From: Deuterostichococcus epilithicus
Taxonomy: Eukaryota > Chlorophyta > Trebouxiophyceae > Prasiolales > Stichococcaceae
Direction: 5' to 3'
DNA length: 64,000 nt
NCBI GenBank assembly: GCA_033439295.1
Contig: JAVTLE010000013.1
Span: forward strand, 1,488,001 to 1,552,000
Of this stretch, positions 31,201 through 51,766 are shown piece after piece (within the stretch, counting starts at the first letter, position 1; each line of letters opens with the position of its first letter). A program made the position numbers and the translations under genes. The notes under the pieces are model-generated. The model saw nothing but the letters and a program-made list of their open reading frames with translations. It ran no database searches and had not been told where the DNA came from.

Positions 31201-34200
31201 ACGCACCGCGAGGATGGCGCTCTCGTTGAGCAGGTTGGCCAGCTCGGCGCCGGAGTAGCCGATGGTCAGCTCCGCCACCTTGTGCAGCAGCGCGTCCTCC
31301 TCGTGCTCCCCGTCGCCCGACCTGTCCAGCGGCTTGTTCCGTGCGTGCACCTGCGCACGGCAACCCGCCTCGTGAGGCAAACGTCCATGCACTGTCGACT
31401 AATGTAACCAAGCCTTCCATCAGTGACATGCCTTCCCTTTGCAGCCTTTTGTTGGAGGAGGGTGCAGACACACAGGCGCTCTCAGTGTATCACGAGAGGG
31501 GGCGACGACCCAGGGGCATGCGACGGCACCTGCAGGATGCGGAAGCGGTTGATGGCGGAGGGGTTGCCCATGTAGATGCGGCGGTCGAAGCGGCCCGGCC
31601 GCATCAGCGCATCGTCCAGCAGCGCCGCCCTGTTGGTCGCGCCGACCACCAGCACCTGTCCAGCAACCGGTCTGACCATTGAGGTTCACAGTGAGCAAGC
31701 GCCCTGCACTCCGCCTCTCCAGCTGTGCCCATGCCGAGCCTCTCGAGGCGTGGACGCCACCACACGGGTGACGGCTGAGATTCTTTGAGGAAAGTTCGCG
31801 TCGCACCTGAGCCAACATTCAGGAGAGACAAACTATGGCACCTGATCATCACGCTTGAAGCCGTCCATCTCGGTGAGCAGCTGCAGCAGGCCCTGCTCCC
31901 GTTCCATGCTGCCCGAGTCCCCGCTGCTGCCGCGCGCCTTACCAATTGCATCGATCTCGTCTGCGGCATCGGCGCAAAGTGTGTGAGTTCAACAGCTGCA
32001 TGTGCATACGACTTGCTGATTTGGCGAGCGAACAGAACCTGCAACACACTCTGAGCAGCACATCCACTTCGACCAGTGACGGACGGATGTGCATGCACAC
32101 AAGAGCGCCCTCACGAGTGTTGTGCTCCTTCTGCTTGCTGGACTGCTGCGCAGGGTTCCACTTTCGGACATGTCCACACACTGCAGTCCGCCTCACCAAT
32201 GAACACGATGGATGGCGCGACCTTCCGCGCGGCGGCGAAGAGCGACCGGATGCGTGCAGAGGCGACGCCCTGGAACATCTCCACAAATTCCGCGCCGTTT
32301 GCAGAGAAGAAGGGCACACCCGCCTCGCCCGCCATCGCCTTTGCCAGGTACGTCTTGCCTGTCCCCGGCGGCCCCTCCAACAGGATCCCCTGCGGCGCAA
32401 CAACACCCGCTCAGGGAGTGTTGGCTGTCAGAGACAGGTGGGATGGTGCCCCTGTCTCGCAGCTCACATGGAAGCAGCGTTACAACGCCCGTATGGCTCC
32501 TGCCAGCCGGCGAAGGTGGCACCGCCCCACTGGAGCGCGGCGTAGACAGCCAGTCTGAGGTGCAGACCGCTGGAACCTGGCGGACAGACCGCAGCACGGT
32601 GATGCACGAGCACGGCGGCGCACCCGGTAGGGGCGGGCGCCCATGGCGCGGAAGGACGGAGCGCCCATGAGCATGTCCATGGCCACCTGGATGTCGCCCT
32701 TCACCTTGTCGATGCCCGCCACGTCCGCATACTTGACACCTGTCGCGCAGCGCATGGCATTGCTTGGAACAGCACGGCGCGCGGTCGGCCCAGGGGCAAC
32801 ACACGCCCTCGAGGGCCGTCGTGCAGGTGCTGCATGCTGTGCAGCGTGCCGTGGTGGTCATCCGCCGCAGAGCGCCGCTGTGCTCGGACGGAGCCGCCCT
32901 GGGCAGGCTGGCGCCACAGTGAACTGAGCGCGGCACGACGAGCCACCCACGGGCAGGACATTGCCACACAGTTGCGAGGCGTGGGGACGGCCACTTTGCC
33001 TCGCGCAGCTGCGTGTGACTCACATAGCTGCGAGTGCGTAGCACAGCTCCGCGAACCGCGGGAACCCGAGGCTCGAGTCAGTTCCTCGCTGTCTCACCCA
33101 GCGACGCCAGCGACGCTGAACCACTTCAGTCGGGCGTCTCGGGATTTGGCATGGCAAGTGCGTCACGAGTGAACGAGTGAACCGAACGAGTGGACTTCTC
33201 TCTCACCGAGCTTCTTGGAGTCAAGGCCCACATTGAACTCTTTCGCGCGGTGTGCGCCCAGCTCGTCCGCCATCTCCTGCATCGCGTCCTTTTTCTTCTT
33301 CCCCAGCTTGGAGGCCAGCCAGGTGCCGACGCCGACCACACCGCGAAGCGCCAGCAGCGCGAAGATGGGCAGGAACTGCCGCGCGTACTGGTTCAGCCAC
33401 ATGGACCTGCGCGGATGCAGGCGGCGGGGCGTGATGGACGTGACTGATGGCCAGACGCAGGCACCAAAGTGCCGCGCGTGCTGCTTCAGTCACATAGATG
33501 TGCGTCGACGCAGCGCTGACGTGGCAGGTGATGCGGCTTGAAGGAGTGATGCACTTCTGATGCGGTGCTTGGTAGTCTAAGACATGCCAAACAGCAGACA
33601 TTAGTCGCACTCTCCCATTCTTGTCAATGCAACAGGACAGCGGAGGGCGCATGCTGCTGGTTCGGTGTGATGCCATGTCAGGAGCTACGCAGCCTGCCGG
33701 TGCCCATCCTCACTGCATCTTGTGCACAGCACCGGTCCCACGGCCGCGCCGGTGCCCGGAGGGCTGCGGGCAGCCGCACAGGCTGTGCCTGCCCATGCAT
33801 CCCCACAGCACCTGTCCGACCGCGTCTGTGCACAGAGTTTGTGTTCGTGAAGGGGTGTAGGCGCGCACTGGTTGCTGGGGTCCACGACAGTCAGCTCGCA
33901 GTAGACCTGCCCCTCTCTCAGCAGCCGCTCGTAGGGGCACCTATTGTCCTCGTCCCTGAACGGCTGCGCCATCTTAACCTGCAGCGGCAGTCCGGGACGG
34001 CTAATGCCCAAGCTGCCAGTGGTCCGGGGCAACCAGGCGAGTGCTCAGCCAGTGCCAACGGCTTCATATGCATCCACTCCACTCCATGCAGTTGATATGT
34101 GGCCTCGACCTCAGCGGGACTCTGGAGCACACGCTGATTCAGCTGGTGTCGCTGGCCAGACAGCTGGGTGTTTGCTCCGGCTGTGGGCAACTGTGTTTTG

Positions 34201-35659
34201 ATTGCTGTCCAGGGGCGGACGGAGAGGGGGGGGGGCNCCAGGCTCATGAAATAGCCATCATCCCAGATGTCGCCGGGCAGCTCGCAATAGAAGCGGTGCT
34301 TTTCCATCTGCCACTCCGGAAACTCCTCTCCATACAAGATCCTGAGGCAGCGCGGCGCCATGCCATGAGCCAACAATCGTGGTTTGGCATACAGATGCAC
34401 GAAGTGAGGCATCTCACAGCGGCGCCATCATAGCAGGGTGCTATGCAGGGCAATAGCAGTAGAGCCGGTCAGAACGAAGGCGAGCGACTCACGTGGGGTC
34501 CACTCGGTCGTACTTGTACGTCTCCCAGTCTGTGGCAAAACCCTGCACGGGCACCTGCGCACCGACGACATGCAGTAGTGTGCATCAGACCTGATGCATC
34601 CCCGAAGCAAGGTGGTTCGACAGTCAGCTGGATTTGGTGCCTCCCATACTACTGCAGATCCTCGCTGAGGAACACCCAGTGGGCCAACATCTCGCTTACC
34701 TCCACGATGGCGACCTTGCCGTCCGCCAGCATCGTGATGCGCTTGACGCGCCGGTCCGCCAGCAGCTGCAGCAGCCGCGCGAATGAAATCTGCTGGCTGC
34801 CCGTCGGCGGAAGGATGTCGTCGTAGAAGATGCGGTCGTTCAGCTTGTGCCACACCCGCTTCACGTCCGGGACGCCAAACCCTGCCGCCAGCAACGGCAT
34901 GCCGCCCGCCCCGAGCGCGTCCAGCTGAACCGGGCACAGGTTTGCTGAGTGCTCGTCACACATCGCCAAAGCAATCTGCGGCACTGCTTCCCGATTCGGC
35001 AAGGCCCAGCCGCCAGCACATTTAATGCTGTTTGCGCACGCTCACCTCTGCATCTGTTGGCCACTCTGGCTCCGCCTCATCCGGGTCCCTGCACATATTG
35101 ACCACCAATGAGTCCACCGAGTGAGTCCATGCACTTGCTCGCCGGCTGATGAAACCAGTCAGTACAGCTCCACCACGGCCAAGGAACGGCCGCTTGCCTG
35201 CCGGATGTCGACGCCTCTGGCGGCTCCTCATCCTCCGCCAGGAGCGGCCGCTCAGCGTCCGGCTGCAGGCAGATGCAGACGTCAGGAGGCGTGGTCGGAC
35301 GCGGAAGCCAGCTCGTGATCGCAGCATTCAGGCTGAGAATTTGACGCATCTGCCTGCATGCTGCAGGAATCTCTGCAATCGGCTACTGAGCCAGCATCCG
35401 GCCCTGAGCGGCGGCGCACCTGCTGGCGGTGTTGCGGCTGCTGATGCCGCTGCGCAGCACGAACCGGTCTGCAGAGGCTGGTATGCCTGCATCTGAGGCG
35501 TTTACGAGCCACGGCAATGGCTGGCTGGAGGGATGTGTGCGCTGCAGTCGCGGGGCAACCGAGCCTAGTTGGCTGCCTGCCACCCAGAAGCGGCACTGCT
35601 TGGCCCAAATGGCCACAGGGAGGTGTTGGCAGCATGCACAGCCGCATGAGGCCTGACAT
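28260..35659 (-). CDS. FTSHI: FtsHi, inactive FtsH-like AAA+ protein of the plastid
   Basis: Twenty exons: 35659-35420, 35262-35198, 35088-35046, 34924-34700, 34554-34493, 34341-34239, 33978-33869, 33406-33207, 32739-32624, 32389-32197, 31960-31842, 31655-31530, 31350-31207, 30920-30687, 30434-30255, 29886-29764, 29458-29331, 29082-28971, 28766-28563, 28430-28260. About 965 residues. An 80-residue Arg/Ala/Thr-rich first exon resembles a plastid transit peptide. One membrane span ([20 protein letters not shown]) precedes the AAA domain, with Walker A GPPGTGKT, Walker B IVFIDEID and [23 protein letters not shown] intact. Where active FtsH has HEAGH this protein has SAARA ([10 protein letters not shown]), so the zinc protease site is gone, as in plant FtsHi proteins, which work in a plastid import-motor or assembly complex. 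The intron after 35198 has a GCAAGC donor. The FtsHi subtype is not assigned. Confidence 0.9.
33378..33510 (-). repeat. Duplicated 5' edge of FtsHi exon 33406-33207
   Basis: Plus-strand GCCGCGCGTACTGGTTCAGC at 33378 recurs as GCCGCGCGTGCTGCTTCAGT at 33471, offset 93 bases, on the upstream (intronic) side of the exon. The repeated unit spans the acceptor; in the copy the AG is lost (CAG to CAC). Confidence 0.85.
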
Positions 35660-36098
35660 ATGCGGTCCCGAAAGCTCACATCGCTGTTTGCATGTCACCG
35701 GAAAGTCGATCCCAAATTGATCGCCCCAGAGCAAGGTGCTGATGACAGCTCGATTGAGATGGATGTTCGACGTTCCTACTGCACATTCGGAAGTGGAAGT
35801 TCGCAGATGAGCTGGCGAGGCCAGCGGCGGTGAGGATAGCTAAACCCGGAAGAAGCTGGGTCGCGCTGTGCCAACTCTGGACACGCGTGCAACTTGCTCG
35901 TCATACATGCCAACTCTTATGAGAGCTCATCAATGGTTGCAGCCACCGGTCAGCAGTTTGAGCTTCCAAAATTGGCATCCCGCTGAGTGTCGGAAACCGG
36001 TTGGCGCTGGTCTTAGTTGCTGTTAGGCAGGGTTGTGTCGATCTCTGAGTCCACACTGAACTGTTGAGTCCACACTGAACTGTTGCCTACTCCTAGTC
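35660..36098. other. Divergent FtsHi/TraB promoter region
   Basis: Shared 5' region of FtsHi (-) and the TraB gene (+). Contains a 19-bp direct repeat close to the TraB start and nothing else I can name. Confidence 0.55.
36047..36084. repeat. 19-bp perfect direct repeat
   Basis: GAGTCCACACTGAACTGTT occurs twice head to tail, ending 15 bases before the TraB start codon. A role in transcription or in the 5' leader is possible but untested. Confidence 0.85.
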
Positions 36099-38253
36099 AT
36101 GCTCCGAATTGGTCTACCAATGCAGTTTGGCCAGGCGCTGCACATGCGCGCGCCGGCGCTGCGGTTGTGCAGGGGCGTAAACCAGCCAGCCGCAGCCAGA
36201 TGTGTCCACACAGTCTCCCTGCTGGACTTCAGTGCGGCGGGCCCGGCCATCCGGCCGTCCGCCTCCCGCCGGCAGGCCTGGCAAGTGGCCGCGGTGGTCG
36301 GCCCAACTGCCAGACAAATTCACTTGGCAGCCGCGGGCATAGGTCCTGCCGCCAGACAGTTCAGCACAGCGCCCTTTCCGTCACAATTCAGCAGCGTGGG
36401 CAGCCCGGAGACGACCACGTACCTGCGCAATATTCAAAATGGAGCGGAAATCTTTGTTGTGGGTGAGAGGCACTGAATCAGCAAGCGCACATAGCAAATT
36501 GCATGAGCCCGACAGGGACAAAGAGGATGGAACTTGAGCACGATGCCCTTTCGGACATGTGTAGTCGTGACTTGTGTAGGAACGGCGCACGTGTCAAAAG
36601 CCTCGGCAGATGAAGTGCGGCAATTGATCCGTCTGGTACAGGTGAGGTTGGTCCTTAAAGTCCTCGACCTGCTGTGGTGGCCATCGCTGCTGACATTCAT
36701 CCGCACCTCGTCTGCCCCTGAAGCGTCTCAAACCGCCATTTGCTGTGCTGCAGCCTGAGACAGTGCTGGTGGAACTGGATGAGGGACGGGCGGCGCGCCT
36801 GCAGAATGGCCAGAGCGCCTCGCTGTTCGAATTCCTCAGAGTGAGCCTCGCACGCCTGTGCAGTCGGTCCAACAGTCGTTCCAGCATGCTGCAGTCGTCG
36901 GTCACACAGGTGTTGCAACACAGTCGCACTCGGAATGCAAAGCTCCGGGAAAGCTGACTCTTTGGACCTGCCGCGTGCAGACACACCTGTTGGGCATCGT
37001 TGTTCCGGGGAAACGCTGGGGTGCAAGCGTCATTAAGTTTGGCGTCGGGGGCATGTACCAGGTCATGCGCATGGTGGGCCTGGAGCCAGGTGCGTCGGCT
37101 GGGGGGGATTCACATGCACAACGGCGAGCGTTGAATCGCTATCGAGGCCCGAAGCAGAAATCCGGCATACGCCAGAACTTCTGAAGAATTTCTGCAGCCT
37201 GCAAGCCGCACCAGTGCAACATGCTCTTCAGGCGGTGAGTTCAAGGCAGCGATGGAGGAGGCACGCGCGGTGCGTGCCCGCATCGTCTTTGGCGACCGGC
37301 CGGTGGACGTCACCAGCGAGCGCATCGCGGCCAACATGGGCTTCCAGGTGGGAGGCTGCATTCCGCAGGCTGATTCGTGCTTGAGAGTCACCCTGTGAAC
37401 CCCTGAGAGAAGCCAGCACAAGCTACGCCCAGATCGATCACGACGTGCTCAGGCATGCAGGTGGATGCGTCGGGGCTGATGTATGCCCGGGCACTGCGCT
37501 GATATGTTTGAACCTGGTCAAGCAGCACAGTCAGTGTGAGCTCACGCCACGGGGTCCTGTCGTTGCGCTGCAGGACGTCGTCCGCTTGTTCGTTGCGTCG
37601 CCGCCCTCATCTGAGGATGACGAGCCGCCTGAGAAAGGCGGCAGCGGCTCTACTGCAGCCGGCGGCCCGCAGCAGGGGCGGCCGGGCATGGAGGGCCGCG
37701 TCGAGGCCCTGAAGACGCGCAAGGCGGCGACAGCCATGCGGCAGCGCATGCGGCAGATCAACCCGAAGCTGGCGGCAGTCCTGGTGGACGAGCGGGATGA
37801 GGTGCGCGCGGTGTCCAGCCTCGGCAGAAATCACTCACGCCTGTCATGTCTCGTTTGCTTTGGTGCCTGGTGGTCGGCAGCCTTGCCAGATACCAGTGCG
37901 CACGGTACACGTCAGGCCTGCCTACCGTTCAGCTCATGTGGCTTTCCTCTCGTGTGCTGTGCAGTACATGGTGCAGCAGCTACGGCGACTGACCGGCAAG
38001 GTGAAACTCTCCTTCTGGCTTTGCAGCGGGAAATGTTGCCATGGTGTCTGCCAGATGATCCACGAGCGAGCGCTGGGTGCACGGCAGAAACCTTGCCGTC
38101 TGCATGTGTGCCCGTCCTTTACTGTGCGGTGTGAGAGCATGACGAGGCGACCTATGAATAACCGCTGTGGTGCACATGCAGGTGGTCGCCGTCGTTGGCC
38201 TCGCTCACCTGGATGGCATTGAAGAGAAGTGGCAGCAGTCAAACGCTGACTGA
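36099..38253 (+). CDS. TraB family protein, probably mitochondrial
   Basis: Eight exons: 36099-36462, 36580-36641, 36754-36840, 36981-37089, 37232-37347, 37574-37801, 37965-38000, 38182-38253, all in phase, about 357 residues. The first 110 residues are rich in Arg, Ser and Ala with few acidic residues and include RQFSTAPFPSQFSS, typical of a mitochondrial presequence. The TraB domain follows: EIFVVGTAHVSKASADEVRQ, then PETVLVELDEGRAARL, the GDRPVDVTSERIAANM segment, ERDEYMVQQLRR and the closing VVAVVGLAHLDGIEEKW. The two G-x-A-H motifs are the family's conserved sites. In animals and plants relatives sit on the mitochondrial outer membrane; the biochemical activity is unsettled. A low-complexity Ser/Gly/Glu insert lies in exon 37574-37801. 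Confidence 0.9.
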
Positions 38254-38782
38254 TCTGCATGAGCAGCGTGCGAAGTTGTGAAGTAGGGTCTGAGATTGAG
38301 TGAGATCTGACAGCGTGGTATCGCCTGGTGACATGAGCATCATGGGCAAGGAGATGGATCTCAAACATTCGCTACCAATATAAGCATCGCGCGCGCTCTG
38401 TTTGTGGCAGAATGTCCGCCAGCGCAAGATCGCTCAGCACAAATGGCGAAGAGCATCACTTCCGGCGATGAAGGCCTTCCTCACAGAGAAACAGGGAACC
38501 ATAAAGAGACAGAGAACTACATCCACATGGTGGGGTGCGACCCCAAGAGCTGACCGTGCCTCCATCTTCCAGCACGCCCACCCAAAGCACCGCACTGTGT
38601 CGTCTTCCTCTGTCCCCAAGCCCACGTTTGCCGGTAGCAGCAGCTGCTGAAACCGCGCCAGCTTTGCGCGGCGTCAGCGCAGGACTGCGCCGCAAGCTTG
38701 GCCGTCCGCCTGGCGCCCGGTGCCGGGCACGATGTTGTAAACGGCGCGGCCACCCGTTGGCTCGGCACCAAACGCCGCAGGC
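38254..38782. other. Convergent 3' region, TraB/MTRR
   Basis: No coding frame with family support. A plus-strand TGTAA near 38736 is too far from the TraB stop to assign. Confidence 0.55.
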
Positions 38783-41700
38783 TCACGACCAGATGTCGCG
38801 CACGTAGCGCTGCTGCGTCGCCATCTGGGCCAGCGTGTTGGCCGCCTCGCTAGCGGACAGCCCGCCGTGCTCTGCTAGGATGTCCAGCAGTGCCGCCTGC
38901 AGGAGAATGGGAGCACAGTGCTCCTTGGTTTGGGGCACAATCGGCACATTCTGCGATTTACGATAGACCAGCATTGCCGGATCATTCATGACATTGGAGC
39001 GCACCCTCAAGGTGCCCTTCTCAGTGGATCGCTTGTCATGGGTGCCGGCAGATGCATTGATGGACCAGCCTGAGCAGTGTGCTGAGCCACCAAGGGTCGT
39101 TGCAGGCTTGCCTGCACATCGCGCGCCATGGCTGCGCCGTCGCCGCACACGAACAGGGAGCCGCCCTGCTGCAGCAGCAGCGGCGCCAGCGCTGCGCCCT
39201 GCTGCCGCATGAGGTGCTGCACATACACCTTCTCTGCCTGCGGGTTTTGGGTAACAACAAAGTTAACAGGCGGAACACTTTGAAAGTCAACTCAGCGACA
39301 GGATTGGATCCGAGCAAGGTTCCTGTGGCATCCGGCCGAACCTCCAGTAGCCCCGGATGTGCAATGGCTGCGCGTGAAGGCGAGTGTGGCCGGTATGCTG
39401 ACATTCGTTGCCATCAGAACAAGCAATGGAGCTGGACCTCCGAAGCAGGTTGGGGGTGGAAATGTGCAGGACTGCACACCTGGGCCCGTGAGTAGGCGAC
39501 GTGCAGCTTTGACAGCGTGCCGTCGGTGGCAAAGGTCTCAAATTCTTCACGATACAGGAAGTCCTCGTCCTGGCGGCGGCAGCCGAAGAACAGCCATGCC
39601 TCGCCGGGCGAGCCATGGAACTCCCGCAGCTGCTGCCGCCGGTGCTGCAGGAAGCCCCTGCAGAGGCGCAGTGCCGCTCTTTTAGGTCGCAGTGCTTTGG
39701 AAGCTCAAATCGGTGGCCGCATGCACATGGCCCCCCAGCGCTGCCCAGTGCTGTAGCCACACCAGGCAGGCGAGACCACCTCGGCAGCTGCGTTCCATCC
39801 TCCGGCCATACCATGCAGGTTGCAAAACAACCACAGCTCTCTGATGCTGGGTGACGATGAGGATCGCCAAAGCATGCCCTTGCCTCCCTACCTGAAGGGC
39901 GCAACACCAGTGCCGGGCCCGACAAAGATGACCGGCTTGCTGAGGTCCTGCGGCGGGCGGAAGGCGCCGCCGCCACGCAGGAAGACCTGCGGAGGGAGGT
40001 GTGGCCCATGTTTGTGCAGCTCGACCGTCAGTGCAAGAGGAAACGAATCCCGAAGAAACGGCGCTCCAGGAGCTGGCTGCAGGATGCAGGCAAACAGGGA
40101 GCCCAGTCACAAGGGGGGTTGGCACCGCAGCCAGACAGGGTTTCTGAAGCGGGCATGCGCCGGAGTTGTGAGACAATGTGCAAACTCATCGCTCGCATTA
40201 ATGATGTGCCACAAGGACACACATTCGGCGAAGGCGCACCGGCAGGCGTTGGACATCTGCAGAGGCCTTGTGCAGCGCGGGGTCGGGAGGCGTGCCGGGG
40301 GTCGCCAGCGGCGCGGCCAGGCGGTCCAGCCAGGTGGTAGCCACGCCGCGCTTGAGCCCATGGGGGGTCTCCATCCTGACGACTGAAAACGCCACGTCCA
40401 CCTGGAGACACCATGGAGCAAATGGGAAGGCGAAGCACACCAGACGTTGTCCTGTGTCCTCCCGCAGAACCGAATGCCACAGGGGGCGGCTGCAGTGCGC
40501 CGTGGTTACGCAGCAGAGCCATGTTGCCAGCGTTGACGATGAGGCCGGTTGCCGAAAGTCCTGTAGGGTTAGCCGCAGGCACCATTGTCGCGACCACCTC
40601 GACACCCAGTCGTCGACAAACAACTGGCAGGACTTCCTCCAGAGGGCCGAGCTAAGTTCGGACAGAAGTCGCTCAACATGAGGAGGTCATTCAAACCCAC
40701 GACAATCCCCAAAACCTAACCCCAGGCACCTGGTCAGGCGCCGCAAGCGGCGAGGAGGCAATGGAGTACAGCCGTGGCGCCAGCGCCGGCAGCGCGTCCA
40801 GAAGAGCGTCCAGTGGCGGGTCGCAGCTGGGAAACTGCCGCAGCAGGTCGAGCAACGACGCTTGGCCATCGCGGACCTCGGCGTTGTAGGCGTCGCGGCC
40901 GCCGCGGGAGGACAGGTGCAGGAGTTTGCGCTTCTCGCCGGGCGCTGAGCAGTGCTCGCCCAGCAGCCGCAGCAGCAACTTGCGCGGCGTGCCTGTCAGG
41001 TCGCATCCCCGCTGCACCAACGCAGCAGACACGGTGACGCGGTCACAGCTCCAAAATTTGCCGCCAGCATTGGGTGGCTGTTGTCTTATACATGCTTCAC
41101 GTGCGGCTCTGTGCGGGGCGGGAGACTGAAGCGATCAGCCGACAGCTGCGACGCTGACAGCCAGGTCGTGACGGTGCCTGACATCCCAACCAGACAGAGG
41201 GTGCGTGTGCAGGCTCGCTGAGGCCAGGGCGCACCAGCAGCGCGGTGCGCAGGGTGCAGGGCCAGCCCAGGTGCTCGAGCAGGTGGCTGCCCGAGGCGCC
41301 GTCGCCGCCCTCTGCCCCCGCCGCGGGCTCCACGCTGAACGCGCGGCCGCCGCCGGCTCCCAGACGTTCCAGCAGCGCATCCACCAGCGACTCGTCGTTC
41401 TGGCGCAACCAAACACACAAGAATGTGAGGTTCCATCCATAGCAAGCAGCTGCAGCGATGTCTGGAGGGGTGGGGAGGTGCTTCGGCTGCGGCGGCTCCC
41501 AGCAGCAACACCAGCAGCCCAGGTCGCCGCTGGCCCGTACGAGGCGAGATCTCAGCACAGAGCTGCTCTGCAGGCCGCGCTGATGCGATGGTGCCTTGCA
41601 TGCAGTTGCAGATCCACAGCGCCCTGCCACTCGCTGCGGTGAGGACAGGACCTCCTGTGACAGAACGGTACGGTCAGCCCACCTGCACGACAATGCCGAT

Positions 41701-43840
41701 GGAGTCGCCCGGGTTGTAGCGCATGCCGCTGTCGGCGATGTCGACGCCAATGTGCAGCACCTGCGCCGTGCACGTCCAAGCTCACAAAACACCACCTCCA
41801 GCGACAGACATCCGGCATCGGCCGCATAGGTCGTGCACAGCCGCTGGCTCTGCGCTGCCAGCCCACATGCTCGGGCATGGTTCTCCTTCAGGCAGGGCGG
41901 TGCTCCAATTGCTTGAAGCACCGGATTGCATCAGGAGCAGAGAGCAGGAGGCAGGAGTCGCGCGTAAGCCGCGCACCCGGCGGTCGCTGTTGGGCGACGT
42001 CATGACGGCCGCCTGGCGCAGCGCCGCCCAGAAGGGTGCCTCCTTGGAGTAAAGCCCCGCGGCGTCGCGGTAGCCCAGCTCCGCCTCCGTGGGGTGCGCC
42101 CGCTCCGCAGAGGCCACCTGCCCAGGGACACGCATGCAGGCTGAGAGACGCGGGCGCACGCCCGAGAGTCGCTTATTAGGCAAACCCCATGCCGCCGGAA
42201 TGATGGGCGTCGTGAGACACCAACTCCAGCTGTAAGAGCCGTGCCGGCAGAGGATACTGCTCGTTTCGAGAGTGTCGAGACAGCGGAGCAACGTTCTTGA
42301 AGACTGCACCATCAGGGCGACAGCTTGGCACCTGCGCAGCGGCGCCGGCGTCCTGCTCCCACACGAGGCGCACGCGACATGCCGGCAGTGGCGGCACGCC
42401 CTCCAGCGCCGCCTCGCCCGCCAATTCCTCCGGTGGCGCAGCCGCGCTGCCGCCCTGAGCAGCGCCCGCGGCGTCCGGCTTGGCGGCGCCGTTCTGTAGC
42501 ACTGGCTTGGCCTGCCAACGAAGGCAAACGATGCCGTGACGAGCAGCACTACATCAACACGCCCTCATGAGCAAACTTCTCGCTGGCTGGTGTACCTCCT
42601 ACATAACAGAGGAGGGAGCATGAATTCGACACTCGTAAGCGCACCTGCGAGTCGCCGCCGCCAGGCAGGCGCGATGCCATCTGCTGCTGTAGCTCCGACC
42701 ACAGGCCATCAGTCCACGCGTCTATGGAGTCCTCCAGACCGTCCACCTCATCGCAGTCCAGCGCCTGCAACAATGCACACCCATGTTGACAGATGCAGCG
42801 CCAGAGTGTCCGATCTTTGTTCGAGAACCCAAAGCTGCGGCATGAGCAGAAAGCAGCCCAATGGTTCGAGCTCTGGACGGCATGTCTCAGAGGTCAGAGG
42901 AGGGTGTGTCGGAGACGGAACAGGTCCAATGCTCCACCGACAACAACGGCATGCGTCGCTGCCAATAGCTGATCGTCTCAGAAACAAGAACAAGCGAAAC
43001 TTTGAAATGCTATGCGCTCACCTTGTAGAAGGGCGTGGCGCCCAGCTCGGCAAAGCGGTTGCGGAAGGTGCGCGGCACCTTGCAGAACTGGGTGTAGTTG
43101 GAGTCGCCCAGCCCCAGCACCGTGATGCTGATGCCAGCAAGCTGCCCCTTTTCCTGCGCCCGGCGCCTGCATTGGCAGCATCGAGAAAGCATGAGCGCGA
43201 CGGGCCCACAGCGGTCGAGGTGCGCATCTCTACCTCCGCCAGAGCAGGAGGCAAGCCTACGAGCGGTTCCTCGGCCAGTGGGGTGCTTGAGGCGCGCCAC
43301 GCGTGCAGGAACCTCCGAAAACAATGCTGGACGCACTTCATGGTGACGTAGAACTTGGCGGCATTGTCCGGCGCGTCGCCGTCGCCAGTGGAGGAGGCGA
43401 CCAGCACGATGACCGGAGTCTTCTCAGGCGACAGGCCCTCCCACCCCAGCTCGTTGCACGACATCACCTGCGGGCCGCGCAGGAGTGGTGTTTTATTTCA
43501 AGACCTCATGCTGCGTGGCGGCGCGGCCAGCTGGAAGGCCAGGCCGCTCAGCACATGACACCTTGGCAGATGGGGGGTTTATCCCCGATGCAACTTCGTC
43601 TTGGCCGGTACCATCCTGCGCACAGCAGCCCGGAGTCGTGTAGCACTGGTTGGACGCACGCGCACCCGTGACTTTACGTTGTGCTCCGCGGAGGCGGCCT
43701 GGATGGAGCGCGCCACCTCCTGTGCGGTGCCCGTCTGCGATGCGTACAGGACTGTGACCTCCGGCTGCACCGCCTTCTGTGCCTTCTGCGCCTGCGCCCG
43801 CTGCGCCCTGCACGCGGCAGGCAGCTGCTGCTTCAACACT
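38783..43840 (-). CDS. MTRR: Methionine synthase reductase-like diflavin reductase
   Basis: MTRR passes electrons from NADPH through FAD and FMN to reactivate B12-dependent methionine synthase. Fourteen exons: about 43840-43678, 43467-43337, 43166-43022, 42764-42645, 42511-42332, 42117-41977, 41760-41683, 41399-41235, 41011-40730, 40401-40267, 39986-39892, 39657-39480, 39237-39112, 38896-38783. About 685 residues (human MTRR 698). FMN domain: [35 protein letters not shown] and [12 protein letters not shown] hinge follows, then FAD motifs RLYSIASSP and [14 protein letters not shown] motifs [14 protein letters not shown] and [14 protein letters not shown], and the ending RYVRDIWS. GLGDSxYTxFC, the LWSEL element and the CTLRT step fit MTRR better than P450 reductase or Tah18. 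The donor at 39111 is GCAAGC; the end at 40267 may instead be 40252. Ns at 43841-43846 hide the start. Confidence 0.87.
40707..40723. repeat. Telomere-like CCCTAA-related motif in MTRR intron
   Basis: CCCCAAAACCTAACCCC lies just inside the intron after exon 41011-40730, with its G-rich form on the MTRR coding strand. Similar motifs occur in eIF5B introns. Confidence 0.45.
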
Positions 43841-43846
43841 NCGNNN
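43841..43846. other. Ambiguous bases at MTRR 5' end
   Basis: N at 43841 and NNN at 43844-43846 beside a G run. The gap breaks the frame between a possible upstream ATG and the first FMN-domain exon, so the MTRR N-terminus cannot be read here. Other single Ns are at 34237 (the T of an FtsHi splice donor), 53854 and 53881 (TAF7 last exon). Confidence 0.95.
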
Positions 43847-43992
43847 GGGGGGATGTAAACGTAAGAACCGCTGTGCAGTCGTCCATGTTCGATGTAAAAT
43901 TGGCAAGTTTTTTGGTGTTACCATCACGCCCAGAAGTCTACCGAGGTGGCTATGCTGTCTGCTAGGTGAGCAGAGAACGGCCCCAAGCTCAC

Positions 43993-44850
43993 TCACTTGA
44001 GGCGCGCCAGAATCGCTGCGCCGCCGGCAGCCGGCCGGCCGGCAGATGCAGGCGCTGCCGCAGCCGGTACAGCCTGCGGCACCGCCTGCTGCTGCTGCAA
44101 CGCCGGCGGCGGGGCCGGATTGCCGTTTGATGTGGACCAGGTAGAGCCCGACTGCGACGTGATGGTCTGCGTGCGGGGCGCCTCGCCATTCACGACGACG
44201 GTGTGGCTGCTCGTGCTGGTGTGGCTGCTCGTGCCCGACCTCGTGTTGGTCGTGAGCGGCTTCCGTGCTTCTGGCGCCGGCGCTGCCACCTGCTGATGGT
44301 GCTGCTGCTGCAGCGGCGGCGCTGTCGGCTGGCTGCTCTGCGCAACACCCTGTGCATCTGCTCCGGCTGAAAACGCCGCTTGGGCCGAGGCTCCGTCCGA
44401 CGTAGCTGGCTGCCTGAGCTCGTCCGCGACTGCACCGTCCTGCTCCGCCACGAGCCCAGCAGGCGCAGCTGAGCCGCCGGCGCTGTCGCTGGCAGCGTCA
44501 ACCTGCACCCGCGGCCCGCTGCTGCCGGTGTTTGACTGCGCATCGCTTGCAGGCTGGGGGGCAGCCCGCGCGCCTGCGGCAGCTGTGTGGCTCTGGCTGC
44601 TGGGCATTTCATGCGGCAAATCTCTGCTGGAGGACTTGCGTGGCAGCTCCTGCAGCTGCACTGTAGAGGCGGCCGGTGTGTCCTTCTTCAGGACCGCTGC
44701 CGCGAGGCCGCCCACTGCAACGATGCCCGCCAACACCAAGAACGCCGAGGGAAAGGCCAGGAGGCCGAGCAGCACGGAAATGACTCCGACGATGAGCATC
44801 AGAGCACCATTTGAAGAGAGCTCCCCAGCGGCCGGCTGGGAGTCTGCCAT
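43993..44850 (-). CDS. Unrecognised membrane protein with Ala/Ser/Gln-rich tail
   Basis: I do not recognise the family. A single-exon frame of 285 residues from the ATG of MADSQPAAGEL; an upstream in-frame ATG at 45066 would add 72 residues, but that stretch has the composition of a leader. Residues about 15-60 form two closely spaced membrane spans (ALMLIVGVISVLLGLL and FLVLAGIVAVGGLAAAVL). The rest is low complexity, Ala, Ser, Pro and Gln rich, with an internal repeat TSSHT-STSSHT and a more ordered patch VVVNGEAPRTQTITSQSGS. It lies about 150 bases upstream of MTRR on the same strand and is divergent from MMAB across about 370 bases. Confidence 0.6.
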   Translation of the reverse strand: MADSQPAAGELSSNGALMLIVGVISVLLGLLAFPSAFLVLAGIVAVGGLAAAVLKKDTPAASTVQLQELPRKSSSRDLPHEMPSSQSHTAAAGARAAPQPASDAQSNTGSSGPRVQVDAASDSAGGSAAPAGLVAEQDGAVADELRQPATSDGASAQAAFSAGADAQGVAQSSQPTAPPLQQQHHQQVAAPAPEARKPLTTNTRSGTSSHTSTSSHTVVVNGEAPRTQTITSQSGSTWSTSNGNPAPPPALQQQQAVPQAVPAAAAPASAGRPAAGGAAILARLK

Positions 44851-45220
44851 CTCGTCGGAGGGACGTGGCCAATCACAGCGTTCGCACGCTTGATACACTT
44901 TCTGTGAGACGGTCGCAGATGGGTGCGCTAGTCTGAGATGTATAACATGCTTCAATGCTGGATCTGTAACAGCATTGTGCCAGAAATTTGCTGTTTGCGC
45001 TCGTCCATCACGAGCCGCTCGTACAGCTTCATGCACATTTTTGACCACTGCTGACAACCGCGACATACCATTACAAACTATCTAACAGCTTTCGCTACAG
45101 GGAAAGAGCATCAGCAGCCTTGGGAACATCGACGCGACGTCCTAGCCATGTGAGTGCGCATGCCGTGTGACTGCTGCACTCGTTGAAGGTTCATGCATCC
45201 GTGATCCATATGCAGGAGCT

Positions 45221-46057
45221 ATGACCCTAGGGTATGTGTGCTTGCATCACAGGAGGATCTATACCAAAACGGGCGATAGTGGCACCTCCAGTCTGTACAG
45301 CGGCGCGCGCCGCACGAAGGACGACGCTGTTTTTCATGCTCTTGGCGATGTGGACGAGCTGAACTCAGCGGTGGGTGTCGCACGAGAGTTTGTGGCGGAG
45401 CTCGACCCGAAGATCGCCCAGCAGGTGGGCGGGATCTGTGATGGGGATCTGTGATGTGCACGGCAGTTTGGCCGGCGACCCATTCGGATCTAGACGTCAG
45501 GGAAGACATGAATGTGGTTTTTTCAGAAGCTGCTGAACTGGCGAATATTTGCATTGCGAAGCTGGAGGTGGTGCAGTCGCGGCTGCTGGACGTTGGGTCG
45601 GCGGTGGCGACGCCCGCAGAGGCGACGGGCGCCGGGAGTGAGGCAAAGAAGCTGCGGGTGCAATTTGACACGGATGCAACAGCCACCCTGGAATCGCGGA
45701 TCGACGAGATGGACGAGGAGCTGCCGCAGCTGACGATGTTCATTCTACCGTCCGGTACGAACGGCTTCATGTTGCTCCTTGCTGGCCATGACAGCAGCAT
45801 TATGCAAGGCATGCGGGCCACGTCGCTTACAGCAAAAGCACGACATGTGGCTGATCCTTGTCTGTGGAATTGATGCAGGTGGCCAGGCATCTTCATTCCT
45901 GCACATGGCCAGATCCATCTGCAGGAGAGCGGAGCGGGCCATCGTGCCGCTGGTGCAGCAGGGTTCTGTCAGTGCTGATGTCGGTGTCTACATGAACCGC
46001 CTCAGTGACTACCTCTTCACCGCCGCGCGTCTTGCGGTCAGTAGTCCACAGCAGTGA
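45221..46057 (+). CDS. MMAB: ATP:cob(I)alamin adenosyltransferase (PduO type)
   Basis: Makes adenosylcobalamin from ATP and cob(I)alamin, the cofactor of methylmalonyl-CoA mutase; usually mitochondrial. Exons 45221-45424, 45562-45754 and 45879-46057 give 192 residues, the normal size of the core enzyme. Family motifs in order: [17 protein letters not shown] near the N-terminus, [30 protein letters not shown] (joined across the last intron) and the nucleotide-site helix [15 protein letters not shown], then [14 protein letters not shown]. The start is uncertain. ATG 45221 gives [11 protein letters not shown] before the conserved core. Alternatively a donor at 45151 spliced to the acceptor at 45252 would join AT to G and start the protein at MRIYTKTGD. 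No clear transit peptide is seen either way. The acceptor at 45561 is AAG. Confidence 0.93.
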
Positions 46058-47237
46058 CGGCTGATGCCCACGGTCGCCCATCGTGAGCTTCCTCTTGTGC
46101 TTGTGTAATGAGTGTCAAGCTCTGATGTTTGCCGCAATGCTGTGTAGGCGAAGAGGGCAGGGGCAGAAGAGGTCTACTACAAGAAAGCGTGAGGCAGGGT
46201 GGTGCAGTGTACTGGATGGGCGCCCAATTCTTTCTGGACCGTTTTCACTGAAGTAAAAGTCACAGCAGCTGCACTGCAGATTCAGGTTGAAGATGCCCTC
46301 TCAGTGAAGTATGTTGCTAGGGAGGGGCTGCTTGATGTGCATTAACACAGTAGGGGTGGTCGCACACACCTAGCTGTATGTTTACTGCAGAGCTTGTTTG
46401 CAAGCGGCGCTGCAGGTGTTTCAAGCAGCCATGCAGGGGTTATTCAAGCCCATGTACCTTGGAACAGCACTTAGTGTGATCGCCTTAGAGCTCCAGGGCT
46501 GCGTGCGACGTTGCACATGCAGCAGCGTCAATGGTAGCGCTGTGCCAATGGACACAAGTAAAATTCTTAAATCGCAAATGGGGCTTGAAAACTACCGTGC
46601 TACCTGCGTGCTGCTTTCCGGCCTCCGCTCTGGCCAGCCTGCAACTGTTTCAGCAATATTGCACCCTCTTTGCCTGGAGGTATGCCTTGACAGTCGGTCA
46701 GACATACTTTTCAGGGGGCCTTTAGGTGCATAGCACACTGCCTTGTCCAACACGTTTCAAGATAGCCCTCGCCTGTTGACACTGGCCCCTACAGCCACTG
46801 TCTAGCGCAACTGGGGCACTTCCTGTCAGCCTAATCCTCGAGTCAGGTGCCTTTTCTGTCGTGTGCATGCTGCTTGGCCGACCCCGCCTGAGTGCATTCC
46901 ACCCGCTCGCACATTGGTTCTCGTTTCCTTTGTTGCGGGGACAGTAGTAAATGGCGCTTGTTAGGGTTCCCGCCGCATCAACCGCCGATGAACGCCTGGC
47001 CTCATCGTGGCTACTTCCCGAGCTCCAGCTCCAGCTGGTTCGCCACCATGTTTCGCCGAGCCTTGCCCACAGTGCTAGTCTCAAAGTTCCGATCGATCGC
47101 ATCCACTGCATCGTCGGGGATTTAAGCACACAAGGAGCCGACCAGTGCCCTGCGAAGCAACTGCAAGTATTTCAGCATCGCTTCTGAACCCCACTCCACA
47201 CGCTCGGCGCACTCTCCGATGTGAACTTTAGCACTTC
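46058..47237. other. Long intergenic stretch, no gene seen
   Basis: About 1.2 kb. Holds the MMAB 3' end with its TGTAA and the ZnT9 5' region. Short open frames exist (for example 46951-47187) but show no family match, splice context or codon bias. Confidence 0.6.
46104..46108 (+). terminator. TGTAA polyadenylation signal, MMAB
   Basis: Chlorophyte-type TGTAA 47 bases after the MMAB stop codon. Confidence 0.6.
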
Positions 47238-50200
47238 ATGCTGCACGCGCTGCTCAAATGTGCCAGCAGGACCATGTGGCAGGCGCACCGGTGTCCACTT
47301 GCAAATTCAGCACGTGCATCGGCCGTTGATCTCGTCAGATTCAGAAGCCCCAGCTGTCCTGCTGGCCTGCGGGACTGCGACGCTGCTCGTGGCGTAGCAA
47401 CCTCTGCTTCGATGGCAGGCCTGCAGCCATTTTGCGCTCCGAACCAAGGACATGGCGCGTCCAGCCCTCACAGCCTGCACCCCGCCGCCGCAGCCAGCGC
47501 ACAACAGCGACATTTCGCTCGGCTTGCATCTCGAGCACACTCACCGGACGGCCTGCAGCGCGTCATCTTTGCTGGGCGGCAGTTGACACCGGCCAACAGC
47601 CTCGCGCACAGACAGCGGTTCGGCGGCGACGGCGCCGGCGCCGGCGGCAGCGGCTTCCGGTGGCAGCCTCCCGGCCAGCTGTCGGCGGCTCAAAATTTCA
47701 GCATCTGGAACGGCTCGCACGACCAGAAACAGGAAGAGGGCTTCCAGAGGTGAGCTGTTTGAAGTGCTGTGGTTTCGGGGCAGGTCCATGGCGAGCAGGT
47801 CACCTGCATGACGGACAGACTCACGCTGAAATGTCTGCAACGATCTGCTCTGCAGGTCGCCGGACTTGCTGGATGCTGCTCCAATCTTCGCAAGCGCAGA
47901 TGACAAGTCGTCGCCCCAATCCCTCGAGGACGCATTCAAGGAGAAGACCTCGTACCGCCGGGAGCTGCACACCGTCAACGTTGGTGAGCATGTGCTGCAG
48001 ATCAGAAGAGTTCCATGCCTGCACGCCCAGCTTCGTGGCTTGACACTTGCACACTTCATCAACCACTGCTGAGCGGCATGGCATCATGCTTTGCAGCCAT
48101 TGGGACGAACTTCGCCATCTTTCTGGCAAAGCTAGGAGTTTTTTCCTTCACCGGCAGCAAGTGAGTATCTGACTGGCAGGCTTGACACACACAGTCGAGC
48201 ACCCCTGACATGCATCAACGATGCGTGAGCAACCCCCAGGCTGCTAAGCATGTGGTTTTGTGCCTGCAGCGCACTCTTTGCAGAGGCAATTCACTCGCTG
48301 GCAGACGTGGCAAATCAGGTACAAGGTTCGACGATCGTTCATGCCATGTCCAGCAGACACACCACGAGTGGCCCACATCGATCCCTGACGATCCACCCAC
48401 GGCCGTGCAGGCGCTGCTGTGGGTGGGCATTACGCGCGCCAAGCGCAAGCCCACCAAGCTGCACCCGTACGGCTACATGCGCGATAAGTTTGTCTTCAGC
48501 CTCATCTCCGCCGTCGGCATCTTCTGCCTGGGCGCCGGCGTGTCGGTGTGGCACGGCTGCGCGGGGCTGCTGGCTGCGCAGCCCGTGGAGCACATCGCCT
48601 GGAGTGCCGCAGGTGGGTCCGAGCAAGGCTCTGCGGCTTGGGCTGACTGCTCCCTTGGGCGCCTGTTGCACGGTTGACATTCGGGCGAGGCAGGAGGCGC
48701 TGCACCCACACGGAGCGCTAGGCCTAGCGCCGCGCATTCGTCTGGCGTCCACCTCCCTGGTCGTAGCAACGTCGAAGACAGTTGGGCGTTCGTCTCAATG
48801 TCATCCAGCCGAACCTCGGGCTCAGCGCTGCCCGCCGACGCGCAGTACTGGGGCTGTCGCAGGTGCTGGCGAGCACGTCGCCGGTGGCGGCGGTGCTCCA
48901 AAACCTGTAGCGTCTGCCAAAGCTTGTGGCTGAGCGCAGCTGCTTCCGCTGCGCAGTGCTGGGGCTGTCGCTGGTGCTGGAGAGCGCGTCGCTGGTGGTG
49001 GCAGTGAGGGCGGTGCGAGCTGGGGCCGAGCAGGCAGGACTACCCTTCAGGGAGTATGTGCGGCGCGGCATCGACCCCACCTCCGTCGCCGTCATGATGG
49101 AGGACAGCGGCGCAGTCGCCGGCCTCGCCATCGCAGGTGCGTCCCTCGGATGCTTTGTCCGGCTGGAGCACACTTAAATTTTGCAGTGCTCCCATGACGA
49201 AGCACCACGGCGCTGCCGCCAGTCTTGCTGTCTTGCGTCCCTCGGTTGGCCGTCGACAGATACCAGACGGAATCTGGGCGGTCGCCAAATCCGCAGCGCC
49301 GTCGACGGCCTCCCCGTCGCGTGTCTTCGAATCTTTCTTTGGCATCACAGAGAGAGAGAGCAAATAGTTGTGCAGCTTCTAACCCTGCTGCTCCTCACGC
49401 CAGGCCAACCTTGATTATACGTGGCTGCCCGCTGGTTGCTTGCCAGGATCCTACAACATGTACCTGTGCTGGGGACCTGCGCACTTTGCCGCGGCAAATC
49501 TGCACTCCAGTGCTTGCGAGGTTTCAGCGGTTTCAGATGCAGCTGTGGGCCAACCGGCAGTTGCAAGGAGGGGTGTCTCGCGCAACTGAAGCCGGTCTGT
49601 GCCGCAGGGCTGTGTACAACGCTGGTACATTTCACGGGGCAGGTCATGTGGGACAGCATCGGCTCCATCTGCGTTGGCTGCATGATGGGCGTCACCGCCT
49701 GGTTCCTCATTTCCCGCAACCGCCAGATGCTCATCGGTGGGTGTCCTTGTCTGCTGTACTCATCAATACCGGCGTGCTTTCTTGTGCGCGGCGCATTTGA
49801 AGCTCGGGTTGAGGTCTGTGGCTCAGCAGCGCATGTTTTGCACGCAAGCAGCCCTGGTATGCGCTCTGCGCCGGAGAGCAGATGGTTACAGACCCATTGC
49901 TCGCATCTGTGCAGGCCGGTCGATGGACCAGACAGATATGCAGACGATCATCAAGCACCTCGAGGCCGACCCAGTCGTAGAGGTGCGCTGGCCTGTGCTC
50001 GATGTGTGCTCACGCAGGCACTTTCCCACTGAATGTGCTGGAACCCGCTCCCAATGATTGCACTGGGCCTCTGATGCAATCCCACCTGTGCCTTCAGCAG
50101 CCTCTTGACAACTAATCCAGCTCAGCTTGCTAATGTCAAGGCCGTCTATGACGCCAAGAGCGAGGAGATCGGGCCGGGCATCTTCAGATTCAAGGCTGAG

Positions 50201-50990
50201 ATTGGTGCGCCACCTCTCTCAAAGTCCTGCAGTGCGCCTTCGGTGTACAACCGCCTGCCAGCGATCACGTACAGAAGCTTGAACTTGAGGAATGCAGGGC
50301 AGACTCTCCCTCATCTCCTCGAAATGGGTTTTCATGATAACTGGCTGTTCATCGTAGCAGAATGCTGCACATGCTGTCGCTGCGTCTCGATTCGCCATGG
50401 TGCACAAGGAATCATCTGGGTCCTTCCGCAGACTTTTCGGGGGAGGAGGTGGTGCAGCGGCACATGAACGGGTCAGGGCGCAGCAACCTGCTGCGCCGCA
50501 TCCAGACGGCTGCAAGGAACGACATGGAGCTGGACCATGCCCTCAAAGCCTACGGTGCGCTTCTGGCCATGAATGCCATGAGCTGCAGATTTGCATAGCA
50601 TAAGGCCGGGGGCCGCACACCTGCACCATGACGTCACACGGGCGCAAGTCCCGGCAGTTGCCCGGGCACCCGCCTGCGACGTCACGTGTGTCCTTGTGAC
50701 ACGAGAGCACGAGGTGTAGACCGGCTGCCCCATGGCCCTCAAGGTCGCACTTGAGGTGAGGCAGGCTCCTTGCTGATGCGGCAGCGGCCAACGGCGATAC
50801 CGCTGCGGAATGTGTGCGACTGGGTACTCTGCGACGCCCCGCAGGCGAGGACATTATCAGCGCGGTGGGCGCAGAGGTGGATCGCATCGAGACGGAGATC
50901 CAGGCCATCAATCCCGGCATCCGCTATGTCGACCTGGAAACCGACCGCGGCCAGGTGGGCAGTCGCCCGAGGGAAAGCCTGCACATGTGA
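47238..50990 (+). CDS. SLC30A9: Zinc transporter ZnT9-like (CDF family)
   Basis: Cation diffusion facilitator; animal ZnT9 exports zinc from mitochondria. Exons: 47238-47749, 47856-47983, 48097-48160, 48270-48318, 48411-48612, 48957-49136, 49608-49736, 49915-49982, 50126-50204, 50432-50554, 50845-50990, about 559 residues (human 568). The first 90 residues (MLHALLKCASRTMWQAHRC onward) look like a mitochondrial presequence. The TM2 metal motif HSLADVANQ is intact, followed by HPYGYMRDKFVFSLISAVGI. The second membrane site reads MMEDSGAVAG, matching the unusual ZnT9 form. The C-terminus carries ZnT9-specific segments: SIGSICVGCMMGVTAWFLI, FRFKAEIDFSG and IISAVGAEVDRIETEI, then RYVDLE. Reading on from the last exon meets a stop at 50988; splicing to 51004 would need a 49-base intron and is less likely. 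Confidence 0.93.
48841..49010 (+). repeat. Duplicated 5' edge of ZnT9 exon 48957-49136
   Basis: CGCAG-TACTGGGGCTGTCGC at 48841 repeats the real junction CGCAG-TGCTGGGGCTGTCGC at 48952, offset 111 bases, and similarity continues for about 55 bases. The copy keeps a CAG acceptor but reaches a stop (TAG) near 48909, so using it would truncate the protein. Confidence 0.9.
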
Positions 50991-51766
50991 ATCTTTCCCG
51001 CAGGTAGTTGTGGTGTCAGATGCACAGCCCTGCATTCGGCCAGGAGCAGGGCGGGACCTCAGGGCAGCCAGCGTTCATGCCGAGCACATGCTGACGCTGA
51101 AGCGCTCCATCCAACGGCTGGGCATCTGTGCCGGAAACACACTCTGAGTAGCGGGGGACTTTCTGCAGGCTTCCACGTGGCCGCGGTCCCGGCGGGCGGT
51201 GACGCCGCCAGAGGTCGCTCCAGCGTGGTAGGCGCCCCAGCGGGCTGCAGCCTGAGGGGCTTCAATTAGCGGACGCACGCCTGCGGTTGCCGCCATGCTA
51301 CCGGCGGCAGGCCTGAGGCGCTAAGACAGGAGGCCCAGCGTGGCAGCATTGCTGCCGGCATGGATGTTGCGGTGCGGCACGCACTGGAAGACTACTGACA
51401 GCCAGTAGCATGCATTCGAGGTGCAAGTTTGAGCGTGCTCGAGCCGCCCCACCAACAGCAGTGCGGCTTGCACCAGCACGAGTACTCGTACACTAGGTAG
51501 CACCATTTTGCTCTGCGTTTAGATCACTCAATTGGATTGAAATTCAGAGGCAATGACTTTCCTTGGTTGTGGGATGCACAAAGCCATGCGATTGTAATGC
51601 GATTGTAAGTGACTGTGATCATCCGTGTTCATCTGCATACTGCCACAAGCAGACCGCATCATGCAGACCGCATTGGACATGACAATGTCCTGCAACATGC
51701 CATTCGACAGGTCCGCTTGATTGCATAAAAGCTTGTCAAGTGCCTGAGCTTGGTTTCGCGCTGTGC
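50991..51766. other. Intergenic ZnT9/RrmJ
   Basis: No gene seen. Two TGTAA motifs lie in a short direct repeat (GCGATTGTAA twice, 51588-51608), too far from the ZnT9 stop to assign firmly. Confidence 0.55.

Follow-up and report, generated by a model that had tools for sequence, protein, structure and literature searches.

What does it mean that two genes, predicted here to encode methionine synthase reductase (MTRR) and cob(I)alamin adenosyltransferase (MMAB), lie next to each other in the genome of Deuterostichococcus epilithicus (46.8 Mb in 21 contigs)? The locus was analysed within a window of 64,000 nucleotides (G000:C11:1488001-1552000), and positions below are those of the window unless another contig or handle is named. 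The GC content of the window is 0.51-0.68 in 2-kb steps, and introns, gene content and GC fit a green alga. N bases are present at 34237, 43841, 43844-43846, 53854 and 53881.

Identity and structure of the MTRR gene

The minus-strand gene with its stop at 38783 matches the Pfam families FAD_binding_1 (PF00667, 163.8 bits), Flavodoxin_1 (PF00258, 87.5 bits) and NAD_binding_1 (PF00175, 58.3 bits), all above the cut-off. When PDB sequences are compared with the FAD/NADPH module, the MTRR chain 2QTL scores 278.6 bits and P450 reductases at most 262.9 bits, suggesting a modest lead of MTRR, in lists with no NDOR1 FAD module among the matches given. With the whole reductase, P450 reductases come first at 306 bits and 2QTL scores 277.6 (best 60 of 125 PDB matches); the P450 reductase chains align over two stretches that take in the FMN part, 2QTL (539 residues) over one.

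As the margin on the module is modest, the genome's own paralogues were used as a contrast. Three other diflavin loci have been found, and two of them, with exon pieces joined, prefer P450 reductase over MTRR, with scores of 420 vs 156 (contig C3) and 249 vs 170 (C19, presumably an NDOR1/ATR3-like locus); the third, on C10, is weak, matched in HMM and tblastn searches only, and stands outside the score comparison. The module comparison, together with the P450 reductase-like locus of the same genome, led to the rejection of P450 reductase for the gene at 38783, which is predicted to encode MTRR rather than this or another diflavin reductase. Its partner METH is also present, with cobalamin-binding and activation domains matched on C13.

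In common with PDB entries 2QTL and 2QTZ, which we take to be human MTRR, the predicted protein has the FAD and NADPH domains and the C-terminal DIWS, and, as in the MTRR family, the FMN domain precedes the FAD/NADPH module. It differs from these entries by about 300-370 additional residues ahead of the FMN domain, which include a hydrophobic stretch and a linker of low complexity; we know of no animal MTRR with such an N-terminal hydrophobic segment and long low-complexity linker. NADPH-cytochrome P450 reductase shares the diflavin layout and perhaps also a membrane anchor at the N terminus, but it matches the FAD/NADPH module less well, and the C3 locus is a far better P450 reductase match.

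The hand-built model of the gene comprises 15 exons on the minus strand, from 45066 to 38783, and encodes 1042 aa, or 970 aa from 44850. Thirteen of the 14 introns are GT-AG and one is GC-AG, with lengths of 133-328 bases and all phases consistent. Exon 1 (43997..44850, probable start ATG 44850) encodes the hydrophobic segment and the long A/Q/S-rich linker; intron 1 (43808..43996, 189 bases) contains the N bases 43841 and 43844-43846. The FMN, FAD and NADPH domains are encoded by exons 2-15 (38783..43807), located at 43807-43666, 43467-43337, 43166-43022, 42764-42645 and 42511-42332 (exons 2-6), 42117-41977, 41760-41683, 41399-41235, 41011-40730 and 40401-40240 (exons 7-11), and 39986-39892, 39657-39480, 39237-39112 and 38896-38783 (exons 12-15).

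The assignment of exon 1 decides whether a further gene separates MTRR from MMAB. The preliminary description had placed one unknown gene between the two, corresponding to the open reading frame 45081-43993, and this frame terminates within a GTGAGT donor. The junctions of intron 1 (caa followed by GTGAGTGA at the donor, and CCTGCCGCGTGCAG followed by gg at the acceptor, phase 2) form the top-scoring phase-compatible donor/acceptor pair in the stretch, and the acceptor TGCAG ending at 43808 puts exon 1 in phase with the flavodoxin exon, which has no ATG across 54 in-frame codons back to the stop at 43920. Given the phase-consistent join and the lack of an ATG in the flavodoxin exon, an independent middle gene was judged less likely; with good though incomplete confidence, we assign frame 43997-44850 and the flavodoxin exon to a single MTRR gene, so that the supposed unknown gene is most likely MTRR exon 1. 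The poly-A signal TGTAA is uninformative here, being absent from the 800 bases after MTRR too.

Exon 1 would be a separate gene if MTRR started at ATG 43924 or 43886, masked by an N run of wrong length. The N bases 43841-43846 do fall within 43996-43808, and these two ATGs are at frame offsets 1 and 2 to MTRR, so a one-base length error could connect one or the other; moreover, the donor of intron 1 taken alone scores 4.1, below the gene's other donors (6.1-13.4 for 14 training donors). Such a start, which would give MTRR a short, perhaps organelle-directed N terminus and is compatible with any of the explanations of the gene pair considered below, nevertheless appears unlikely, as the exon 1 frame stops exactly inside the GTGAGT donor and the acceptor phase fits, both as splicing predicts, and the intron length of 189 bases is within the range of the gene.

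As to the start of the spliced gene, an upstream in-frame ATG at 45066 is also available. GC content at codon positions 1/2/3 is 0.71/0.61/0.75 in 44850-43997 and 0.65/0.49/0.42 in 45066-44851, compared to a third-position value of 0.87 in the remaining MTRR exons. The low third-position value of 45066-44851, which looks non-coding, makes 44850 the probable start. Of the extent first given for MTRR, 38783-43840, the 3' end is thus exact, but the 5' end adjoins the N bases 43841-43846, which probably misled the earlier placement of the start.

The hydrophobic segment (44689..44805, minus strand; residues 88-126 of the 1042-aa model) reaches 2.51 in Kyte-Doolittle windows of 19 residues and is a possible membrane anchor or hairpin; MTRR with exon 1 would probably be membrane-anchored. 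The exon 1 portion, including the A/Q/S-rich linker, has no match in Pfam or NCBIfam.

The adenosyltransferase and the B12 enzymes of the genome

MMAB, a PduO-type cob(I)alamin adenosyltransferase gene, occupies 45221..46057 on the plus strand, with exons 45221-45424, 45562-45754 and 45879-46057 and a product of 191 aa. The product matches PF01923 (Cob_adeno_trans) with 191.6 bits (cut-off 24) over profile positions 1-170 of 171, and a search of the genome with this profile yields no other locus. In the PDB, three MMAB-type sequences align with 168.6-172.3 bits, the next one, PduO-like, with 112.4. Both genes thus have the identities first proposed for them, as judged by Pfam domains and PDB sequence comparison. 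The first intron, 45425-45561, uses the non-ideal acceptor GCGAAG and restores homology; a variant with the donor at 45438 and the acceptor ending at 45500 was ruled out, since it breaks the frame. The stop at 46057 agrees with the preliminary description, and the start is at 45221, as proposed there, or at an alternative ATG split by an intron (45148-45149 and 45253).

The protein shares with human MMAB/CblB/ATR, which we take PDB 2IDX to be, the full-length PduO-type domain and the stretches CRRAER and NRLSDYLFT, the former aligned with 2IDX. The active-site residues of human ATR include Arg-190 and Glu-193, according to the available part of PMC8633584, and in our own mapping these would correspond to CRRAER. 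Unlike the human protein, MMAB has no evident mitochondrial presequence under either start model, as seen by inspection of the sequence with its predicted 5' end, which would fit a cytosolic location. Another difference from the human system is that no MCM or MMAA partner has been detected in the genome.

For methylmalonyl-CoA mutase (MCM), exon-by-exon HMM searches with PF01642 and TIGR00641 gave no candidates in the genome; each search was positive in 8 of 14 control genomes, all of them prokaryotic, so that sensitivity for intron-split genes lies outside this control. METH, METE (C5, both domains matched) and ribonucleotide reductase (RNR) were recovered here by the same type of search. The sole MeaB/MMAA match in the genome, on C12 (23.6 bits, cut-off 23.1), was rejected as an SRP54 gene (122.8 bits), and no MMAA was detected. 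The B12-binding domain PF02310 was found in two stretches, both in METH, with no second protein carrying it at E up to 10. A genome search for class II RNR (RTPR-type, TIGR02505) returned nothing; the large subunit of RNR is represented by a single PF02867 locus with ten exon matches, seven of which were used in a comparison where it fits eukaryotic large subunits, presumably class I, with up to 437 bits. The searches for adenosylcobalamin enzymes covered MCM, PF02310 proteins and class II RNR.

With MCM, MMAA and class II RNR undetected and B12 binding confined to METH, MMAB looks orphaned, and a gene content of METH, METE and an orphan MMAB suggests facultative use of B12 by the alga. The proposal that it uses both methylcobalamin and adenosylcobalamin therefore holds in part: the search for METH that had been advised was successful and makes methylcobalamin use plausible, while that for the mutase, with two models, was not, and adenosylcobalamin use is left unsupported by the results for MCM, MMAA and class II RNR.

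A comparable pattern is known in land plants. The available part of PMC11439496 describes hornworts that keep CblB without MCM and CblA, alongside METH and MTRR, and treats the reason why hornworts and liverworts lacking MCM keep CblB as an open puzzle (section 9); the same source names a few green algae with MCM (Tetraselmis, Chlorella). The present case shows the same combination, CblB without MCM and CblA, but in a presumed green alga, and with the gene head to head with MTRR.

What the head-to-head pair may do

If exon 1 belongs to MTRR, the two genes are head-to-head neighbours 0.3-0.4 kb apart, and they are probably direct neighbours, judging from the gene models; the linkage claimed earlier is thus confirmed and probably tighter than claimed. 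The likely start codons are 370 bases apart (297 bases to the split start), and the stretch between the genes (44851..45220), a putative shared promoter, has GC content of 0.44-0.58 in all eight windows of 50 bases counted from 44850.

The position of MMAB beside MTRR is a hint at a role in the METH branch, possibly that of holding cobalamin. MTRR would pass electrons from NADPH via FAD to FMN and reactivate cob(II)alamin on METH, and MMAB would bind cob(II)alamin and ATP, with adenosylation following reduction. Both genes would be transcribed jointly from the short intergenic stretch, if it is indeed a shared promoter; MTRR could act as the reductant of MMAB within the methionine-synthase branch, and MMAB might hold or store cob(II)alamin or adenosylcobalamin and return the cofactor when METH needs it. 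A paper of 2004 reportedly treated human adenosyltransferase and MTRR together. Human ATR is both an enzyme and an escort, and without MCM it can cleave the Co-C bond of adenosylcobalamin and then binds cob(II)alamin more tightly (PMC8633584, available part). A promoter common to both genes, MTRR as the electron donor of MMAB and MMAB working on the METH side, taken together, make up the reading that we tentatively favour, as a credible possibility rather than a probable one.

Somewhat doubtful, yet to be taken seriously, is the possibility that the adjacency is a coincidence, with both genes serving B12 metabolism under separate regulation and MMAB being a relic or having a minor activity. 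Head-to-head gene pairs are common in genomes generally, and the MTRR-MMAB pair was singled out from many possible pairs. A given pair would be adjacent by chance in about 2 of 10,000 cases (assuming, not counting, some 10,000 genes), which speaks against coincidence, but since the pair was so chosen, this figure is no test. The hornworts, where CblB persists without MCM, fit coincidence as well, gene order being unmentioned in the available parts of PMC11439496. Against it stand the biochemical partnership of MTRR and MMAB and, for a relic in particular, the full-length domain (191.6 bits), which shows no visible decay.

That MMAB supplies adenosylcobalamin to an enzyme unrecognised, or missed by the searches or the assembly, would suit its complete domain, the adenosylcobalamin-dependent metabolism of a new kind raised as possible for hornworts and the occurrence of MCM in Chlorella and Tetraselmis and of RNR-II in Chlamydomonadales (PMC11439496, available parts of sections 9 and 8), but is rather improbable, as neither an MCM-type mutase nor a class II RNR was found and no second PF02310 domain appears at E up to 10.

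Returning to the METH-side reading, an orphan CblB beside MTRR in an alga provides a concrete hypothesis for hornworts and liverworts, namely that their orphan CblB serves the methionine-synthase branch. A broader version, according to which green algae that retain METH and lack MCM have re-used the adenosyltransferase as a cytosolic cobalamin holder or store, whose cargo is reduced by a membrane-anchored MTRR expressed alongside it, is speculative and unlikely.

CblD-like genes and flanking regions

Two CblD-like loci have been identified in the genome, with 34.2 and 29.8 bits, and 31.8 and 26.9 bits on rescanning (cut-off 27). CblC (MMACHC) is represented by one sub-threshold stretch (C3:741681-741755, plus strand; 23.6 and 20.3 bits, cut-off 27).

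The first CblD-like locus consists of three consecutive minus-strand exons on C9 (622280-622152, 622029-621918 and 621737-621550; G000:C9:622280-621550, equal to L030 2781-2051, minus strand). The stretch aligns with CblD chains of the PDB (E 1.4e-9) and retains one of their two neighbouring cysteines; a further exon, 622659-622503, placed in front is in phase and falls outside the alignment. One open exon holds both the end of the CblD-like stretch and the beginning of an ABC nucleotide-binding domain; nucleotide-binding exons continue to about L030:1060, and exons matching ABC_membrane_2 are located upstream, likewise on the minus strand (about L030:4955-3960, and further upstream in L045). 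This arrangement suggests an ABCD-type gene in which a CblD/MMADHC-like domain separates the transmembrane from the nucleotide-binding part, that is, a candidate transporter-CblD fusion, the most unexpected feature that we met. The ABC composite matches "ABC transporter D family member 1", presumably a plant protein, with 171 bits, better than ABCD4 (134 bits) and ABCD1 (125 bits), so the label CblJ/ABCD4 is not settled.

The second CblD/MMADHC-like gene (G000:C11:986656-986748, plus strand; L031 about 2157-2249) is located on the same contig as MTRR and MMAB, about 0.5 Mb away. A GCC motif is found in the following open reading frame, and no ABC domain was seen around the gene in the plus frames scanned.

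If the holder or store reading of MMAB and the transporter-CblD fusion are both true, they would amount to a physically coupled, membrane-side handling of B12, unlike the human route. Among the literature matches listed, nothing was on point for an algal MTRR-adenosyltransferase pair, a transmembrane MTRR or an ABCD4/MMADHC fusion; MMAB, MMADHC and others are tabulated across early fungi in PMC8085122, the available part of which is silent on gene order and on fusions.

Flanks of the locus (33850-38750 and 46100-51000) were scanned in six frames with Pfam at E up to 0.001, a scan that short exons may escape. The sole match is Cation_efflux (PF01545), marking a transporter gene downstream of MMAB, part of which lies at 48405-48611 on the plus strand.
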